Shown: piece by piece, positions 573 to 34,948 of the stretch
Numbering within the stretch: position 1 is the stretch's first letter
Layout: each line of letters opens with the position of its first letter
Assembly (NCBI GenBank): GCA_003132525.1
Contig: PKXZ01000054.1
Coordinates: forward strand, 1,290 to 37,039
Origin: Candidatus Dormiibacterota bacterium
GTDB lineage: Bacteria > Chloroflexota > Dormibacteria > Aeolococcales > Aeolococcaceae
Reading direction: 5' to 3'
DNA length: 35,750 nucleotides
Notes under the pieces: generated by a model
Told to the model about the DNA's origin: nothing
Seen by the model: the letters and a program-made list of their open reading frames with translations, nothing else
The model's database searches: none
Position numbers and translations under genes: made by a program

Positions 573-2156
573 CTAATCGGTCGCTGCGGTGCTCGCGGCT
601 TCCGCGACATAGCGCGGGAGGTGCACGTCGTCCGAGCCCGCAAATCGCATCGCGCCGGCGACCAGGTGATGGCCGGCGACCTCGTCGATGAGCCGGAGCA
701 TCTCCTGGCAGATCTGCCGGTAGCTCGGGTGACCCTGTGGCGATGTGCGCAGCTCGACCATGTGCATCGCCTCGCGCGCGTTGAGCTTGATCAGATAACG
801 CATGCGGTGACCAAGGGTCACGAGGTAGCCGGCCTGCTGCGGGAAGGCATCGACGATCTCGCGGTATGCGGCTTCGGCCTCGCGAACGGCGACATGCCAT
901 CGCTCTCCGAGCCCTGCGTCGACGATCGCGTCCGGCACCTCATAGCCGAGTGACGGGGTCAGCTCCTGCCACTGCACCGTGAGCATGCGATGGCGTTGCA
1001 GGTCGCGGAACGCGCCGTAGTCGGAGATGACCTCGAAGGTGTAGTCGCAGTGCTCGAAGCCGCGTCCGGGACGATGCCGCCGGTTGCCTCGATGCCCGAC
1101 CGCGGCGGTGAACAGCGCCGCCCGGCGCGAGTCCGACAGGGGTCGCACCGCGGCGAGCAGGCGCTCCTCCGACGCGTGCGAGTACGGGAAGAGGGCGGAG
1201 GCAAGGATGCGCTCCTCGCCATCCCCGTCCCAGTCGACCAGGGTCACACCGGGTGGCCCCCACTCGGTCTCGGGCGCAAGAAGGTCGGCGTCACTCACGA
1301 GCGAGGCTGCGGTCTCACGCAGGTAGTCGACCCACACGCCACCTCGATCGGGGCGGTCGAGCCGGGTCAGGAACTCGGGGATCAACTTCTGCAGCTCGCT
1401 GTTGACCAGCTCCGCGTATGCCCGGGCCTCGGGCAGGGGATGAGCGCGCAGACGGAGGACGAGCTGCTCGTACGCCTGCGGCGAGGCGAACATGCCGACG
1501 TTGCTCACCGTCCCCGCCGGCAGCAGGCCCCGCATCAGGTCGAGCGCCAGCGCCCGGATCGCTCTTTTGCGCGCGCCGGCGTCTGCCTCCGCCGGCAGGG
1601 TCTCGTCGAGGTGCCTGGTGAGCGGCTCGCGCAACTCCGTGTAGGTGTCAAAGAGCATGTCCATCGCCCTGACGTAGGTCGCCCCGAGCGGCGACGCAAG
1701 CACGTCGCGATCACGGAGGTAGCGGTAGTGGCCGTCACGGCGGTCCGTGTAGGGGATGTAGCGCGTCGACTGTTCCAGGTAGGCCGCGAGCCGCCCCCAC
1801 TCGATTGCCTTGGCAAGCGGCTGGGAGACCTGCTCGCAGGCGAGGTGCACTCCCGCCAGCTGCGCGACCGAGTCGTCGCCATACTCGGCGAGCACGCGGC
1901 CGAACAGATCCGACGCGCGTGCGCGACCGGCGTCTGCGGCGGTCGCCTCGATTGGGCCGGTGCCGGTGAGGAACTCGTCGACGAGGAGCCGGCGCAGGCT
2001 CTTCGAGCTGCGGCTGTATCGCGCGAACAGCGCCGCTGCGGTCACCTGGGGAAGATTGGTGAGGGCGAACACAGGACGATCGAGGTTGGTGACATGCGGT
2101 GCGAGCAGCTGCTGCTCCTCCGCGGTGAAGGGTTCGACGTAGTAGTCCGCGATCAT
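573..2156 (-). CDS. Tandem-domain ThyX-like protein (FAD-dependent thymidylate synthase family)
   Basis: 527 residues, about twice the length of an ordinary ThyX, and read here as two ThyX-like halves (about 1-270 and 310-520). ThyX makes dTMP from dUMP with methylenetetrahydrofolate, FAD and NADPH; its signature is RHR, seven residues, then S-x-R-Y. The first half keeps the tail (EQSTRY at 128-133) but has W-G-R where RHR should be. The second half keeps RHR (388-390) but has Glu398 where the Ser should be. One complete site per chain is therefore doubtful; the two halves may complement each other, or the protein may have another role. Start ATG 2156 is chosen because a TAGAGT hexamer ends 7 bases upstream; the open frame extends further but only across the divergent promoter and gene. 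No thyA is visible in the window. Confidence 0.75.
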   Translation of the reverse strand: MIADYYVEPFTAEEQQLLAPHVTNLDRPVFALTNLPQVTAAALFARYSRSSKSLRRLLVDEFLTGTGPIEATAADAGRARASDLFGRVLAEYGDDSVAQLAGVHLACEQVSQPLAKAIEWGRLAAYLEQSTRYIPYTDRRDGHYRYLRDRDVLASPLGATYVRAMDMLFDTYTELREPLTRHLDETLPAEADAGARKRAIRALALDLMRGLLPAGTVSNVGMFASPQAYEQLVLRLRAHPLPEARAYAELVNSELQKLIPEFLTRLDRPDRGGVWVDYLRETAASLVSDADLLAPETEWGPPGVTLVDWDGDGEERILASALFPYSHASEERLLAAVRPLSDSRRAALFTAAVGHRGNRRHRPGRGFEHCDYTFEVISDYGAFRDLQRHRMLTVQWQELTPSLGYEVPDAIVDAGLGERWHVAVREAEAAYREIVDAFPQQAGYLVTLGHRMRYLIKLNAREAMHMVELRTSPQGHPSYRQICQEMLRLIDEVAGHHLVAGAMRFAGSDDVHLPRYVAEAASTAATD

Positions 2157-2163
2157 CGACGCA

Positions 2164-2169
2164 ACTCTA
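2164..2169 (-). promoter_or_regulatory. Putative -10 element (TAGAGT) for the ThyX-like gene
   Basis: TAGAGT on the minus strand ends 7 bases before ATG 2156, the spacing expected if transcription starts at or next to the start codon (leaderless mRNA). No Shine-Dalgarno sequence and no convincing -35 are seen. Confidence 0.4.
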
Positions 2170-2219
2170 CGGATCGGCGCGGTCAGCCAGCGCCCGGTGG
2201 AGCGGTCCGCGATCTCGTC

Positions 2220-2225
2220 TACAAT
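2220..2225 (+). promoter_or_regulatory. Putative -10 element (TACAAT) for the GlcF-like gene
   Basis: TACAAT, one mismatch from TATAAT, ends 9 bases before ATG 2235. There is no Shine-Dalgarno sequence in the 78-base divergent intergenic region, so a leaderless or very short-leader transcript is likely. No clear -35. Confidence 0.5.
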
Positions 2226-2234
2226 CCGGGCCCA

Positions 2235-3545
2235 ATGGCCGGTGCCGCCGTCCCGACCCCCCGCTTCCTTGCTGACGTCTACGAGGCGGCAAGCGAGTGC
2301 AACAAGTGCTCGCTCTGCCAGGCTACGTGCCCCGCCTACGTCGTCAATCCCGTGGAATGGGAAACGGCCCGCGGGCGCATCGCGCTGATCCGCGACGCGA
2401 TGGAGGGCCGCCTCGAGCTGCGCGACATCGCCGACGGGCCGCTCTCCACCTGCCTCACCTGCGACAACTGCGTCGCCGCCTGCGCACCGCGCGTTCCCAC
2501 CGGGCACATCGTGAGTCGCGCGCGCCAGGAGCTCCACGCGCAGGAGGGGTACCCCTGGGCGCAGTCCTTCGCGCTGCGCACCGTGCTCCCGCGACCAGGC
2601 GCGCTGCGTGCGCTCCACGGGTTCGCGCGCTTCACACGGCGCACTGGGCTGTACGGTCTCGCCCGCCGCACCGGGCTGCTCTCATGGCTCGGCACCGTCG
2701 GCGCGCTCGCCGAGCAGGGCGGCCCACCGCCGGACCGCACTGTCTACCAGATGCTCGGTGACCTGCCCGAGCCCGCCCAGCCGGTTCGCGGAACCGTGGC
2801 GATGCTGGTGTGCTGCCTGTCGAATCTCACGGCACCCGAGGCGACCGAGGCGACGATTCGCGTGCTCCTCGCGTCGGGGTACGACGTCCATGTCCCCCAA
2901 CTCGGGTGCAGCGGTCTGCCCGCGCGCACGCTCGGCGACCGCGACGCGATGGTGGACATGGCAATCAAGAACACTGCCGTGCTGAACACGCTCGAGGTCG
3001 ATGCGTACATCGGCGACACCGCGTCCTGCACCGAGCACTACCGCGAATACGGGAGCATCGCCGGAGACGATCGTCAGGTCGGCCCGCGTGCCCGGGAGAT
3101 CGCGCACCACACCGCGCTGGCGAGTGATTTCCTCGATCGCAACGGGGTGCGCGGCGCACTCGGTCCGCTGCGCTGGCGCGTCACCATCGACGAGCCGTGC
3201 GCGCTGCCGATCGACGGTCCCGAGCGCGGCGCGATGCTGCGCCTGCTCGAGCAGATCCCGCACCTCGAGGTCGCGCCGCTGAATGAACGCGCGATGTGCT
3301 GTGGCGGCGCGGGCACATACTTCGCCCGTCAGCCGGAGCGCAGCGAGACGATCCTGCGTCGCAAGTTCGAGAACATCCGGGCAAGCGGCGCGGAGATCGT
3401 GGTCACCGAGAACATCTCGTGCCTGCTGCAACTTCGCGCCGGCGCCGCGCGGTACGCACCGGACGTCAAGGTGATGCACATCATGGAGGTCATGCTCGCC
3501 TCCCTCCAGGGTGCCGAGCGCCGCCGCGCAGTGCTCACCGCCTAA
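2235..3545 (+). CDS. GlcF-like (Fe-S)-binding oxidoreductase subunit
   Basis: 436 residues. Two 4Fe-4S motifs of the CxxCxxCxxxC type lie at C22/C25/C28/C32 and C73/C76/C79/C83. They are followed by two heterodisulfide-reductase-type CCG domains. The second is canonical (DEPCALP, MCCGGAGTYFA, then TENISCLLQL). In the first, the usual CCG is altered to GCSG (QLGCSGLP), so its cluster or cofactor binding may differ. The layout matches GlcF, the iron-sulfur subunit that takes electrons from a flavin-linked glycolate, lactate or similar 2-hydroxy-acid dehydrogenase at the membrane. No GlcD/GlcE-type partner lies within the window, so the substrate cannot be assigned. ATG 2235 is selected by the TACAAT box and by family alignment. 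The gene meets hemQ tail to tail with a 4-base overlap at the stops. Confidence 0.85.
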   Translation: MAGAAVPTPRFLADVYEAASECNKCSLCQATCPAYVVNPVEWETARGRIALIRDAMEGRLELRDIADGPLSTCLTCDNCVAACAPRVPTGHIVSRARQELHAQEGYPWAQSFALRTVLPRPGALRALHGFARFTRRTGLYGLARRTGLLSWLGTVGALAEQGGPPPDRTVYQMLGDLPEPAQPVRGTVAMLVCCLSNLTAPEATEATIRVLLASGYDVHVPQLGCSGLPARTLGDRDAMVDMAIKNTAVLNTLEVDAYIGDTASCTEHYREYGSIAGDDRQVGPRAREIAHHTALASDFLDRNGVRGALGPLRWRVTIDEPCALPIDGPERGAMLRLLEQIPHLEVAPLNERAMCCGGAGTYFARQPERSETILRRKFENIRASGAEIVVTENISCLLQLRAGAARYAPDVKVMHIMEVMLASLQGAERRRAVLTA

Positions 3546-30268: not shown

Positions 30269-30272
<4 letters not shown>

Positions 30273-31144
30273 GCGTGCGCCCCGGTCGTGGGCGCCGCCC
30301 GCCCGGCCGATGCGTGATACGCATCAGGTCGCCGATCGGTGTGCAGGTGGTTGCGCGGCGTGCGACGTCGCGCCTGTTCGACGGAGTCGAGATCGACGTC
30401 GGCGATGAGCAATTCCTCCGCATCCTTGCTCGCCGGGCCGGACACCGGCCATCCATCGGCGCCGACGATGATCGACGCGCCGATGAAGGTGACCCCGCGC
30501 TCGACGCCGATGCGATCCGCGCAGGCCATGACCACGCCGTTCTGGGCGGACGTCGCCATCGCGACGTAGTCGCCCTGGCAGTACCCGCGGTCGTCCCAGA
30601 CGGTGCGCTTGAACGACGCAACCCAGTTGGTCGGCACCGCGATGATCTCCGCGCCTGCGAGGGCAAGCGCCCGGGCGGGCTCGGGGAACCAGAGGTCGAA
30701 GCAGATGATCATGCCGACGCGGCCGAAAGGAAGATCGACGATCGGCAGCTCATCACCCGGTTGAAACCACGACTGCTCGTCGTAGTACAGATGCAGCTTG
30801 CGGTACGTCGCCATGCGACCGGATGCGCCGACGAGCACCGCGCTGTTGTGTCTGCAATCGCGGTCGCGCTCGTTGATGCCGGCGACGATGTAACAGTCGT
30901 GCGTGGTGCAGATCTCTCGCAGCTCGCGGACGGTCGGTCCATCGTCGGGATCCTCTGCAGCGCGCTGCGCCTCGGCTTCATCACCAAACACGTAGCCGCT
31001 CGACGCAAGCTCGGGGAGCACGATCAGGTTCGCTCCCTGGTTGGCTGCCGCCGTCGCCCAGAGCACCGCCTGCGAGCGGTTGTGCTCGAGGTCACCGACG
31101 TGCGGCTCGTACTGGGCGACAGCGATGCGAACGGAGCGGCTCAC
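30269..31144 (-). CDS. Carbon-nitrogen hydrolase (nitrilase superfamily)
   Basis: 291 residues. The Glu-Lys-Cys catalytic triad is visible as Glu45 (LPELASSGY), Lys116 (YRKLHLYYDE) and Cys148 (IICFDLWFPE). The family hydrolyses amides or N-carbamoyl groups, less often nitriles. The closeness to aliphatic amidase, N-carbamoylputrescine amidase or omega-amidase cannot be settled by eye. The last 40 residues are Arg/His-rich and probably disordered. GTG 31144 starts 4 bases after the alr stop and fits the family N-terminus (VRIAVAQYEPHVGD); the longer open frame upstream overlaps alr and is not used. The stop overlaps the pcrA start. Its position after AsnB-like and Alr genes suggests a role in amide or D-amino acid chemistry (inference). 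Confidence 0.87.
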
Positions 31145-31148
31145 ATGC

Positions 31149-32279
31149 TCACGGTAGCGCAGCAGGCGTCGCCCCAGGACGACGCGGGATGCCCTCCGGG
31201 ATGCCGCAGAGAATCTCGTGCGGGAGGGTCCCGGTGAGCTCGCCGACCTCGTCCGCGCCGATGCGGATTCCGCCGTGCTCGCCGATGAACATCGCGACAT
31301 CGCCGGGCACGACACCATCCACATCGGAGACATCGACGCCCACCTGGTCCATGCTCACGATCCCGACGATCGGGCAGCGTCGCCCCCGGATCGCCACGTG
31401 TCCGCGGTTGGACAGCGCACGGGGCAGACCCTGCCCGTAGCCGAGAGTGGCGGTGGCGATCAGACTTGCTCGTTCGGCTCGCCAGGTGCGCCCGTAACCG
31501 ACGCTCTCGCCGGCGGCGACCGTTCGCACCTGGGCGACCCGGCAGAAGACGTTCATCGCCGGCCGGAGCGATGCGGGGCCGGGCACCGGTGGATATCCGT
31601 AGAAGGCGATCCCGACGCGCACCAGGTCGTGGTGCATCGCCGGATGCCTGAGGATCGCCGCACTGCCGGAGGTGTGGAGCAGCGCCTGCGGCGCGACCGG
31701 CCGGAGGGCTTCGACGGCCTCGAGAAACAAGCCGTGCTGAGTGACCGTGAACGCCACGTCGTCGGCCGCGTCGGCGAAGTGCGTAAAGATGCCCGCCACC
31801 TCGACACGATCACCTGCCGCGCGCACCGCGTCGGCGAGCTCTCCCACCTGCTGATGGAGCGCGCCGAGCCGGTGCAGCCCGGTGTCGATCTTGAGGTGGA
31901 CCCGGGGCCGGCGACCGGTTGCAGCAGCCGCCGCCACCGCAGCGAGGCCGCCGGCATCGAGCACGCTCACGTCGACGTCCGCGGCGATCAGCGCATCGAG
32001 CGTCTCGGGTGGGCTCCAGCCCACAACGAGCATGCGTGCGTCGAACCCTGCCGCTCGGAGTCCGAGCGCCTCCTGCGGCGTGTACACGCCCAGCCAGGTG
32101 GCCCCACCGTCGAGCGCAGCCCTCGACGCGATGGCGATGCCGTGCCCATAGCCGTTCGACTTCACCATCGCCATCACCGCCGCCGGCCGCACGAGCGTGG
32201 CGATCACCTCGGCGTTGCGGGTCAGCGCGGCGACATCGACCTCCACCCAGCGGAGTTCGCCGCCGTCCCCCGAGCTCAC
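31149..32279 (-). CDS. alr: Alanine racemase
   Basis: 376 residues. This PLP enzyme makes D-alanine for peptidoglycan. The PLP-binding Lys40 sits in VMAMVKSNGYGHG; the barrel motif HLKIDTGLHRLG and the strand IFTHFADAAD follow; RVGIAFYGYPP and the C-terminal LGYGQGLPRALSNRG and PIVGIVSMDQVGVDVSD carry the second active-site region. In most Alr the segment GYADG has Asp where Gln stands here (GYGQG); the catalytic Tyr is kept. The GTG start overlaps the upstream AsnB-fusion stop as GTGA, so the two products are coupled, which is the main reason to connect the fusion protein with cell-wall precursor synthesis. Confidence 0.94.
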   Translation of the reverse strand: MSSGDGGELRWVEVDVAALTRNAEVIATLVRPAAVMAMVKSNGYGHGIAIASRAALDGGATWLGVYTPQEALGLRAAGFDARMLVVGWSPPETLDALIAADVDVSVLDAGGLAAVAAAAATGRRPRVHLKIDTGLHRLGALHQQVGELADAVRAAGDRVEVAGIFTHFADAADDVAFTVTQHGLFLEAVEALRPVAPQALLHTSGSAAILRHPAMHHDLVRVGIAFYGYPPVPGPASLRPAMNVFCRVAQVRTVAAGESVGYGRTWRAERASLIATATLGYGQGLPRALSNRGHVAIRGRRCPIVGIVSMDQVGVDVSDVDGVVPGDVAMFIGEHGGIRIGADEVGELTGTLPHEILCGIPEGIPRRPGATPAALP

Positions 32280-34948
32280 GCTCCGACCGGTACGGGCTCC
32301 GGCGCAGGCGTTGCGATACCTGCCGGGGCGACCCGGCGGACCAGGCCGAACGGCGTCTGCTCGTCCGACTGCCCCAGCGGGTTATCGGCAATCATGGCTA
32401 GAACAGCCTCGCCTTCCACGCCGACCGATGCGAAGACCTCGGCCGCCATGTCGTTGGCATCGATGATCGCGACCCCAACCCGCCGTCCGGTGCGCTGGCG
32501 CAGGTCCGCCGCGATGTGCAGCGCCGCGCCCGACGGGTCAACAGGCGATTTGGTCGCCCATTTGTCATACGGCGGAAGGTTCAGCGACGACGGCCCGTCG
32601 ATCGCGTTCACCCCATGGCCGGCAACACGGTAGAAGACGCCGCGCATCCCGAGCGGCTTGGTTGCCGCCGCTGCGGCGGCCGCCAGCAGGATCCGTCCGG
32701 CGCCGGCTTCATCGATCGCCAGTTGCATGGTGGTCGGATGGGCGAGCCCGACGCCGGTCGGCTCGTGGCTCACATAGCGCGAGAGCACGCGAGCGGTCCG
32801 CGACACCGGGATGTCGTCGATGGGATACGAGCGTCCCTGGCTGATCGCCAGTGCTTTCTCACTCACGAGCAGGACGTCGCCGTCCTCGACCTCGACGCCG
32901 TCGCCGCGGAGACGCTCGAGGCTGCCGGAGATGGCCTCGAGCAGGTCGTCGCCCGGCTTGATGAGCGTCGAGCGCAACGGAAAGCGCGCCCAGATCCGTC
33001 CCTTGTCCTCGAGGAACAGGTGACGACCCCAGTTGAGGCGGGCGCCGTCGAGCAGCGCCTCGCCGTTGGCGAGCGTCTTCGCGGTGGCGCGATCGCCGCG
33101 GCGGACGAAGCCGCCCTCGTAGCTGTTCTTGTCGAGCGAGCGCGTGCTGCCATCGATGTAGACGCGCAACCACACCTCCGCGTTGACGGCGCGCCAGAAG
33201 AACATCGATTCCTCGACCTCCCCGGCGCACGCGCGGCGGAAGTTCTCGGCAACGGCAGCCGCCTTCCAGTATGGACGGGCACGAAATGACGGGGAGCGCA
33301 TCAGGCTCTGCAGCACCGCGCGCTGGCGGCGGTACCAGCGAAACTCCGGTGTCGTGAAGCCGATCTTCTTGCGGCGTGCCTCGACCTTGCGGGGCAGGAC
33401 GCCGTGCAATGCATGGCGGACGATCGCCCTGGTCCACCCGTTGTGGATGATCGCGGTGCGCGGCAGCGTGAGGATGTAGTCCACCAGTTCCTGGTCCAGG
33501 TAGGGCAACCGGGCCTCGAGCGAATGCGCCATCGACGCGCGGTCCTCGTAGCGCAGCAGCGGCGGCAGGCTGTAGGTGCGAAAGTCCTGGAGCAGCCGGC
33601 GCTTCAAATCATCGGCGACGCGATCATCGGCGGGTGGCTTGCGACCGCGCGTGAACGACGGCGAGAGCATCGCTCCGACATCGACACGCTGACCGCGCTC
33701 GCGCAAGCGCCGGCGCACGAGCGGGGTGACGATGTCGCGAAGCAGCCATGCCTCGCGCGCGAACTCCGCATACCGGCGCTCGCGCAGCAGCTGGCGAAGC
33801 AGCACATACGGGTAGTGGTCGTATCCCGCCAGCAGCTCGTCGCCTGCCTGGCCGTCGAGCGTGACCGTCACCTGGCGCCTCGCCAGGCGCATGACCATCC
33901 ACATGGCAAAGGGCGCCGACGAGACCATCGGCTCCTCCATGTGCCAGACCCACGCCTCGAGCTCGCGGATGAAGTCCTGGTCGGTGGGCTGGACCTCGCT
34001 GTTGTCGGCGCCCGTCACCTTGAGCACGCTCTTGATGTACGAGCTCTCGTCGATGCGGTCGCCGGGGAACACCGCCGAGAAGGTCTTGAGGCGGTCGCCA
34101 AGCGACTCGGTGTCGCGGACATGATCGTGGAGCTGCTGCGCCATCACCGTGCAGATGGAGGACGAGTCGAGCCCACCGCTCAGACAGATGCCGACCGGCA
34201 CGTCGGCGATGAGCCGGCGCTGCACCGCACGCTCGAACATCGCGCGGAACGTCTCCGGGCTCGCGTCGCCATCCTCGGAAAGCCGTGGAGTCCAGTACGT
34301 CGCTTCAGAGATCGTGCTGCCCTCGATCACCGCGAACGCGGCGGCGGGCACCTGGCGAATCCCGCGAAAGAACGTGCCGTCGTTGTGATCGAAGAGCCCG
34401 AAGCGCAGGTACTCGTACATCTGCTGCTCGTCGACCTCGCGCGGGAAGGTCTCGTCCTGCAGGATCGCCTTGATCTCCGACGCGAAGACCACGCGACCGC
34501 GATGGCGCGCATAGAAGAGCGGCTTGATGCCGAAGTGGTCACGCGCCAGGACGAGCCGGGGATCCTCGGCGCGCTCGTCAAGAATCGCGAGGCCCCACAT
34601 GCCGTTGAAGCGTCGGAAGCAGTCGGTCCCCCACTCCGCATATGCGTGCAGCACGACCTCGGTATCGCAGGTGGTCTGAAACACGTGGCCGAGTGGCTCC
34701 AGCTCGGCGCGCAACTCGCGAAAGTTGTAGACCTCGCCGTTGTAGACGATTTGCAGCTTCCCGCCGTCCATCGACATCGGCTGCGCGCCATGCTCGAGGT
34801 CGATGATGCTGAGGCGGCGGAACCCGAGCGATGCGGTGGCATCTTCGAAGAACCCGTCATCGTCCGGACCGCGGTGCCGGAGCGAAAGCGTCATCCCCTC
34901 CAGCAACGCCCTGTCAGGCGGACCCCAGAAGCCGGTTATCCCGCACAC
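32276..34948 (-). CDS. Glutamine-dependent asparagine synthetase fused to an F420-0:gamma-glutamyl-ligase-like domain
   Basis: 890 residues; ordinary AsnB proteins have about 550-650. Residues 1-190 are a class II glutaminase domain with nucleophile Cys2 (MCGITGFWG, GTG start), FRRLSIIDLEHG, VYNGEVYN and TTCDTEVVL. Residues 220-600 are the AsnB synthetase domain with the ATP loop SGGLDSSS (257-264), DGQAGDELLAGY and the SLEARLPYLDQELVDY segment. Residues 654-873 resemble the CofE-like ligase family: LIKPGDDLLEAI, DGDVLLVSEKALAISQGR, MRGVFYRVAGHGVNAIDGP, AIIDANDM and DNPLGQSDEQTPFGLVR. A Pro-rich tail ends the protein. Relatives of AsnB such as LtsA amidate meso-diaminopimelate in peptidoglycan. 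Coupling to alr makes such a role conceivable; the true substrate is unknown. The start is set by the essential Cys2. Confidence 0.88.
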   Translation of the reverse strand: MCGITGFWGPPDRALLEGMTLSLRHRGPDDDGFFEDATASLGFRRLSIIDLEHGAQPMSMDGGKLQIVYNGEVYNFRELRAELEPLGHVFQTTCDTEVVLHAYAEWGTDCFRRFNGMWGLAILDERAEDPRLVLARDHFGIKPLFYARHRGRVVFASEIKAILQDETFPREVDEQQMYEYLRFGLFDHNDGTFFRGIRQVPAAAFAVIEGSTISEATYWTPRLSEDGDASPETFRAMFERAVQRRLIADVPVGICLSGGLDSSSICTVMAQQLHDHVRDTESLGDRLKTFSAVFPGDRIDESSYIKSVLKVTGADNSEVQPTDQDFIRELEAWVWHMEEPMVSSAPFAMWMVMRLARRQVTVTLDGQAGDELLAGYDHYPYVLLRQLLRERRYAEFAREAWLLRDIVTPLVRRRLRERGQRVDVGAMLSPSFTRGRKPPADDRVADDLKRRLLQDFRTYSLPPLLRYEDRASMAHSLEARLPYLDQELVDYILTLPRTAIIHNGWTRAIVRHALHGVLPRKVEARRKKIGFTTPEFRWYRRQRAVLQSLMRSPSFRARPYWKAAAVAENFRRACAGEVEESMFFWRAVNAEVWLRVYIDGSTRSLDKNSYEGGFVRRGDRATAKTLANGEALLDGARLNWGRHLFLEDKGRIWARFPLRSTLIKPGDDLLEAISGSLERLRGDGVEVEDGDVLLVSEKALAISQGRSYPIDDIPVSRTARVLSRYVSHEPTGVGLAHPTTMQLAIDEAGAGRILLAAAAAAATKPLGMRGVFYRVAGHGVNAIDGPSSLNLPPYDKWATKSPVDPSGAALHIAADLRQRTGRRVGVAIIDANDMAAEVFASVGVEGEAVLAMIADNPLGQSDEQTPFGLVRRVAPAGIATPAPEPVPVGA

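Follow-up and report, generated by a model that had tools for sequence, protein, structure and literature searches.

The stretch of DNA analyzed here (the window, 35,750 nucleotides) comes from a Candidatus Dormiibacterota bacterium (assembly GCA_003132525.1, contig PKXZ01000054.1, positions 1,290 to 37,039), whose genome of 3.2 Mb is spread over 113 contigs. Its minus strand carries a gene in which an asparagine synthetase of the AsnB type is joined in one frame to a domain resembling CofE, the F420-0:gamma-glutamyl ligase. The gene and its features are as follows.

32276..34948, minus strand: asnB/cofE-like fusion gene, 890 residues, GTG start, TGA stop overlapping the alanine racemase gene alr
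34457..34948, minus strand: GATase_7 (class II glutamine amidotransferase) domain, residues 1-164, with PF13537 at 44-164 and nucleophile Cys2
33164..34249, minus strand: Asn_synthase (adenylating) domain, residues 234-595, PF00733, 257 bits
34163..34180, minus strand: SGGLDS pyrophosphate loop, residues 257-262, invariant in 24 sequences
32330..32977, minus strand: predicted CofE-like amide-ligase domain, residues about 658-873, from PF01996, AlphaFold and Foldseek
32597..32599, minus strand: Asp784, aligned with the metal-site Asp of CofE GVDxSN, in 155 of 155 domains
32459..32461, minus strand: Asp830, aligned with the Asp of CofE SDTxGR, in 153 of 153 domains
32351..32386, minus strand: DNPLGQxxEQTP motif, residues 855-866, aligned with the CofE MGKxxxxP segment

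The plus strand over this gene is interrupted by stops, and the single continuous frame that the first-pass annotation had described without naming a strand lies on the minus strand, beginning at 34948 and ending at 32276. A Pfam search placed GATase_7 (44-164, 154 bits), Asn_synthase (234-595) and F420_ligase (PF01996, 658-838) in one protein, the last scoring 59 bits where 25 are required, so that the domain identities proposed earlier hold. In 24 aligned full-length relatives Cys2 and the SGGLDSS loop are invariant, apart from the last S, which is T in some. The AsnB signature is thus intact, as had been claimed, and the N-terminal half would be catalytically competent.

A scan with the C-terminal half yielded 45 related loci, 35 of which hold both halves in one frame. 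The carriers belong to Dormibacterota/Chloroflexota, several classes of Actinomycetota and Patescibacteria, and include genomes of named strains of Terrabacter, Humibacillus, Stackebrandtia, Actinomyces and Schaalia. The fusion is therefore present in relatives, and it is real, conserved and old. An artefact of assembly or frame, to which broken frames in a few metagenome-assembled relatives (L004, L008-L010) could point, is virtually impossible and was rejected, since the same architecture recurs in those independent named-strain genomes. We found no description of the fusion, or of a CofE-like protein with an amidase or SpoVB, in the open-access literature; subscription journals may hold one. 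A plasmid search with the CofE-like half gave no match. Terrabacter genomes have two different AsnB/CofE-like fusions (second loci L255, L258 and L259). A full fusion frame also occurs in a record from human faeces labelled Bacteriophage sp. (L247, MT835656.1); it groups with actinobacterial and patescibacterial fusions, and the record seems to be a bacterial contig given a phage label in error.

The pairing of the two halves extends beyond the fused forms. In five loci the two proteins are encoded by adjacent genes, asnB immediately upstream and cofE-like downstream (L137 and L145 in Patescibacteria, L150 in Actinomycetota, L161 and L163 in Chloroflexota). The gene order is htpX-asnB-cofE-gatC-gatA in L145 and htpX-fusion-gatC-gatA-gatB in L029, the fusion occupying the place of asnB-cofE. 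In a tree of AsnB sequences, whose rooting is limited by long branches and few references, all 29 CofE-linked AsnBs form one dedicated clade (99/95); nine non-linked AsnBs fall outside it, some of them drawn from four genomes in which the CofE-like domain is present. The fused forms make up two groups with the split operons L150 and L137 as neighbors (96/92 and 97/95), and a tree of 149 CofE-like domains requires two changes for the fused label. The association is thus ancient and repeated. These results suggest that an ancestral asnB-cofE operon was fused at least twice, or was fused and then split again.

We then compared the C-terminal half with CofE. AlphaFold models this half with a pLDDT of 86, and Foldseek returned significant matches to CofE structures only (2phn, E 5e-11, probability 1.00, TM 0.58); a profile comparison with the CofE proteins of these genomes gave a probability of 96. 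The PF01996 match and the CofE fold thus support the resemblance first noticed from the sequence. The active site was mapped by sequence alignment. In a joint alignment with CofE, the family retains GDDL, a Lys ahead of GR, both Asp residues (one in GVDxSN, one in SDTxGR) and the Gly...Pro motif at the C-terminal end; the adjacent Thr of CofE is Ala. The CofE counterparts of Asp784 and Asp830, two residues that every domain aligned at these positions retains, presumably bind metal. CofE forms an acyl phosphate, which is then attacked by an amine (PMC8498797). By analogy, the C-terminal half in all likelihood works in the same way, yet it is not CofE.

Indeed, fusion-type domains lack the CofE segment WRxGxVDxALG...DxRGxxDxxGxxL, which follows the second metal Asp and precedes the C-terminal motif. 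The spacing between these two points is 27-29 residues in the CofE-like family versus 56 in CofE, and it is for want of this segment that the PF01996 alignment, which begins at position 2 of the profile, stops at position 156 of 218. A long domain-swapped hairpin of CofE contacts F420 (PMC10861534) and would lie in the missing segment. The fusion protein scores 29.5 with the NCBIfam CofE equivalog, far under the cut-off of 180.65. Many fusion carriers have a canonical CofE/FbiB beside CofD as separate genes, and canonical CofE was not found in several carriers searched (Actinomyces, Schaalia, Thermoleophilia); PF01933, the CofD family, also matches YvcK-type proteins, and its counts were read together with an adjoining CofE match. 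Since most carriers have either a separate true CofE or none, and since the F420 segment is absent, it is highly improbable that the C-terminal half adds glutamate to coenzyme F420 or to some other flavin, in spite of its PF01996 match and its fold. This role was rejected on the same grounds, and the F420/glutamate chemistry of CofE, cited in the first-pass annotation, does not transfer to this half.

One could also assume that the fusion is the ordinary asparagine synthetase of the cell, with an accessory or regulatory CofE-like domain. Its annotation as asnB is standard, it exceeds the cut-off of TIGR01536, the general asparagine synthase equivalog (452 versus 267), and it is the sole AsnB found in ten carriers. 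However, asparaginyl-tRNA synthetase (AsnRS), searched at E 1e-30, had no match in 11 of 19 carriers and passed the curated cut-off in one only, and AsnA was found in a single carrier; several of these genomes being drafts or metagenome-assembled, the absences are soft. Where AsnRS was not found, we infer that the carriers form Asn-tRNA by a GatCAB-dependent route, in which case free asparagine would not be needed for tRNA charging. These observations favor, for the AsnB half, a function different from simple asparagine supply, as is known for AsnB/LtsA enzymes. Moreover, the alignment of this half shows no counterpart of the E. coli AsnB segment TTIRAST, which we take to hold the Asp-binding Arg, the four non-linked AsnBs from genomes with the CofE-like domain fall outside the clade, and the catalytic Asp residues of the ligase half are kept in every copy. 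The closest solved structure is that of the hydroxyamidotransferase TsnB9 (7ylz) rather than that of an asparagine synthetase. Altogether, we regard an ordinary asparagine synthetase as unlikely.

The genomic context of the whole CofE-like family points to another field of chemistry. The domain was found in 114 of 299 sampled genomes (about 38%) of the Clostridia-type Bacillota lineage, mostly as a stand-alone protein, and in 5-7% of those of Actinomycetota (17 of 296), Patescibacteria (19 of 287) and Chloroflexota, the phylum of the window (16 of 301); it would be the older and more widespread part of the fusion. A Pfam scan covered 137 immediate neighbors of CofE-like genes, five AsnBs and five other long neighbors being left out. 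The commonest family was Amidase_3 (MurNAc-L-Ala amidases, 13), followed by the overlapping Polysacc_synt (11), MatE (11) and MurJ (10), and D,D-carboxypeptidases (Peptidase_S11, 3) and MraZ (2) were also present. Of 130 loci, 20 have an Amidase_3 protein within four genes of the CofE-like gene and 18 have a flippase within that distance. In Clostridia the CofE-like domain is even fused behind Amidase_3 in one chain (L110, L114). MurJ (>250 bits) adjoins the gene in Actinomycetota (L154, L158), and VanW does so in L136. Two patescibacterial loci (L130, L133) have the CofE-like gene followed by mraZ, rsmH, ftsL-like and ftsI genes, of which rsmH and the ftsL-like one were recognized by eye, and the asnB-cofE pair of L150 is flanked by yggT-like and divIVA-like genes (by eye). 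Peptidoglycan genes are thus frequent neighbors. By our estimate, which is not a computed background and assumes that a genome of 2000-3000 genes holds a handful of this kind, far fewer than one locus in a hundred would have such a neighbor by chance.

Other arrangements of the CofE-like gene were seen. Amidase_3-CofE-like fusions occur in L110, L111, L113-L115, L118, L119 and L228, usually with a SpoVB/MurJ-type flippase gene after them. In nine clostridial loci (L121, L210-L215, L219, L221) an Orn/Lys/Arg decarboxylase gene lies directly downstream of the stand-alone gene, and in L192-L200, also clostridial, genes resembling 5-oxoprolinase and biotin-dependent carboxylase subunits (by eye) lie upstream. 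The qimC gene of Streptococcus pyogenes encodes a CofE-like protein of unknown role in a wall-modification operon (PMC13059722); it could be another hint of CofE-like folds in envelope chemistry.

The window itself adds little to this picture. On the minus strand groEL lies upstream of the fusion, and alr, a nitrilase-type amidase gene, uvrD/pcrA and ligA lie downstream, the first two being:

31149..32279, minus strand: alr, alanine racemase, PF01168/PF00842, translationally coupled to the fusion (GTGA)
30269..31144, minus strand: nitrilase-superfamily amidase (CN_hydrolase), linked to the fusion only in the lineage of the window

The overlap noted in the first-pass annotation is correct, the TGA stop of the fusion sharing letters with the GTG of alr. 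The amidase announced after alr is present as well, and only its start, placed at 31333, has to be moved, probably to near 31144, because residue 64 of the open reading frame is where homologues start. On the other hand, Alr and the amidase do not form a general module with the fusion. Their linkage was seen in the window's own lineage (L003, L005-L010) and nowhere else among the related loci found, and for this reason it adds only a weak hint for a cell-wall role. Elsewhere in the window (573-2618, minus strand), the translation of an open reading frame of 681 residues resembles, by eye, a duplicated ThyX-type protein.

What the partners of the family have in common is that they act on the amides and carboxyls of peptidoglycan precursors or transport these precursors, and we therefore take the fusion as a stem-peptide modification enzyme. 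The cell-wall link suggested at first thus finds support, mostly through relatives (Amidase_3, MurJ/SpoVB, mraZ-rsmH-ftsL-ftsI, D,D-carboxypeptidase) and little from the window. We propose a bifunctional enzyme modifying carboxyls of peptidoglycan precursors, a proposal whose chances we judge evenly balanced. Its N-terminal half would hydrolyze glutamine, channel the ammonia, adenylate a carboxylate and then amidate it. The C-terminal half would be a metal- and nucleotide-dependent ligase of CofE fold, turning a carboxylate into an acyl phosphate and joining it to an amine. The likeliest substrates would be peptidoglycan precursors or muropeptides with free carboxyls in the stem peptide, and both halves may act on one molecule.

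Several points weigh against this proposal. No clear signal peptide is visible by eye in the Amidase_3 partners, an unusual trait for hydrolases of the wall. The neighbor samples are phylogenetically clustered and come with no shuffled background, and some Clostridia loci were picked for length. The genes next to the fusion in Actinomycetota are not cell-wall genes, nor are those in Dormibacterota, alr excepted. Finally, the AsnB of Listeria that amidates meso-diaminopimelic acid (meso-DAP), the sole such reference in a tree with long branches, falls outside the CofE-linked clade, so that the substrate of the fusion AsnB need not be meso-DAP. The peptidoglycan of Actinomyces and Schaalia is not known to contain this residue.

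A more precise hypothesis concerns position 2 of the stem peptide. MurT and GatD together amidate the alpha-carboxyl of D-Glu, and our search found MurT in only 4 of 22 genomes. Terrabacter and Humibacillus have two fusion-length AsnBs; Intrasporangium calvum, a member of the same family, is reported to bear glycine on the D-Glu alpha-carboxyl of its peptidoglycan (PMC3035309). Because MurT was mostly not found and this relative of two-copy carriers has glycine at that place, the fusion could be the missing enzyme that attaches glycine or another amino acid, and/or the corresponding amide, to the D-glutamate alpha-carboxyl of peptidoglycan precursors, and the CofE-like family at large could be a new class of stem-peptide ligases. 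We consider this more specific idea quite unlikely.

The main rival to a role in peptidoglycan is the synthesis of a soluble amidated peptide or osmolyte, comparable to N-acetylglutaminylglutamine amide (NAGGN), in which the CofE-like half would link one amino acid to another, for the AsnB half to amidate the product. The logic of the parts would be the same, an ngg synthetase gene following the amidotransferase gene in Azospirillum. The kinship of the AsnB half with TsnB9 would fit, and the fused genes are often isolated, with no wall genes nearby. However, the clade does not include the NAGGN amidotransferase, the fusion protein reaches 320 with TIGR03104 for a cut-off of 570, and in several lineages the stand-alone CofE-like gene accompanies Amidase_3, flippase and division genes. 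We hold this alternative to be doubtful.

If the fusion does modify peptidoglycan precursors, the consequences would go beyond one gene. Going by its Pfam match, one readily labels the CofE-like family as F420 enzymes, whereas its partners, namely AsnB, a MurNAc-L-Ala amidase, a lipid II-type flippase and division genes, point to cell-wall precursor chemistry. Across four bacterial groups, the gene context indicates cell-wall construction rather than F420, and the fusion may be an unrecognised route of modifying cell-wall building blocks. This would provide a gene for stem-peptide substitutions, for which we know of no enzyme, as well as a new step of relevance to antibiotics.

A parallel can be drawn with known AsnB-type systems. 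TsnB9, the nearest solved relative of the AsnB half, has no CofE-like half itself, and its chemistry is that of a hydroxamate. The NAGGN pair likewise associates an AsnB-type amidotransferase with a peptide ligase, but this AsnB belongs to a different branch, and its partner is annotated as the ngg synthetase, presumably an ATP-grasp/GNAT protein and not a CofE-fold ligase. As for CofE and the N-terminal domain of FbiB, they share with the fusion-type domain the fold, the GDDL and xK...GR motifs, the aligned pair of metal Asp and the C-terminal Gly...Pro motif. The fusion-type domain is nevertheless about 28 residues shorter, lacks the conserved WRxG..D.RG segment, has AISQGR in place of SKAEGR and an extra GIGLGxPxTMQLAIDE and RGxFY segment, and occurs without F420 genes. 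Homologues of the AsnB/LtsA type, finally, amidate meso-DAP of peptidoglycan (PMC8554201). The fusion has in common with them the GATase II and Asn_synthase domains, Cys2, SGGLDSS and possibly the same kind of substrate, but its AsnB forms a separate clade, fused to or paired with a CofE-like ligase.

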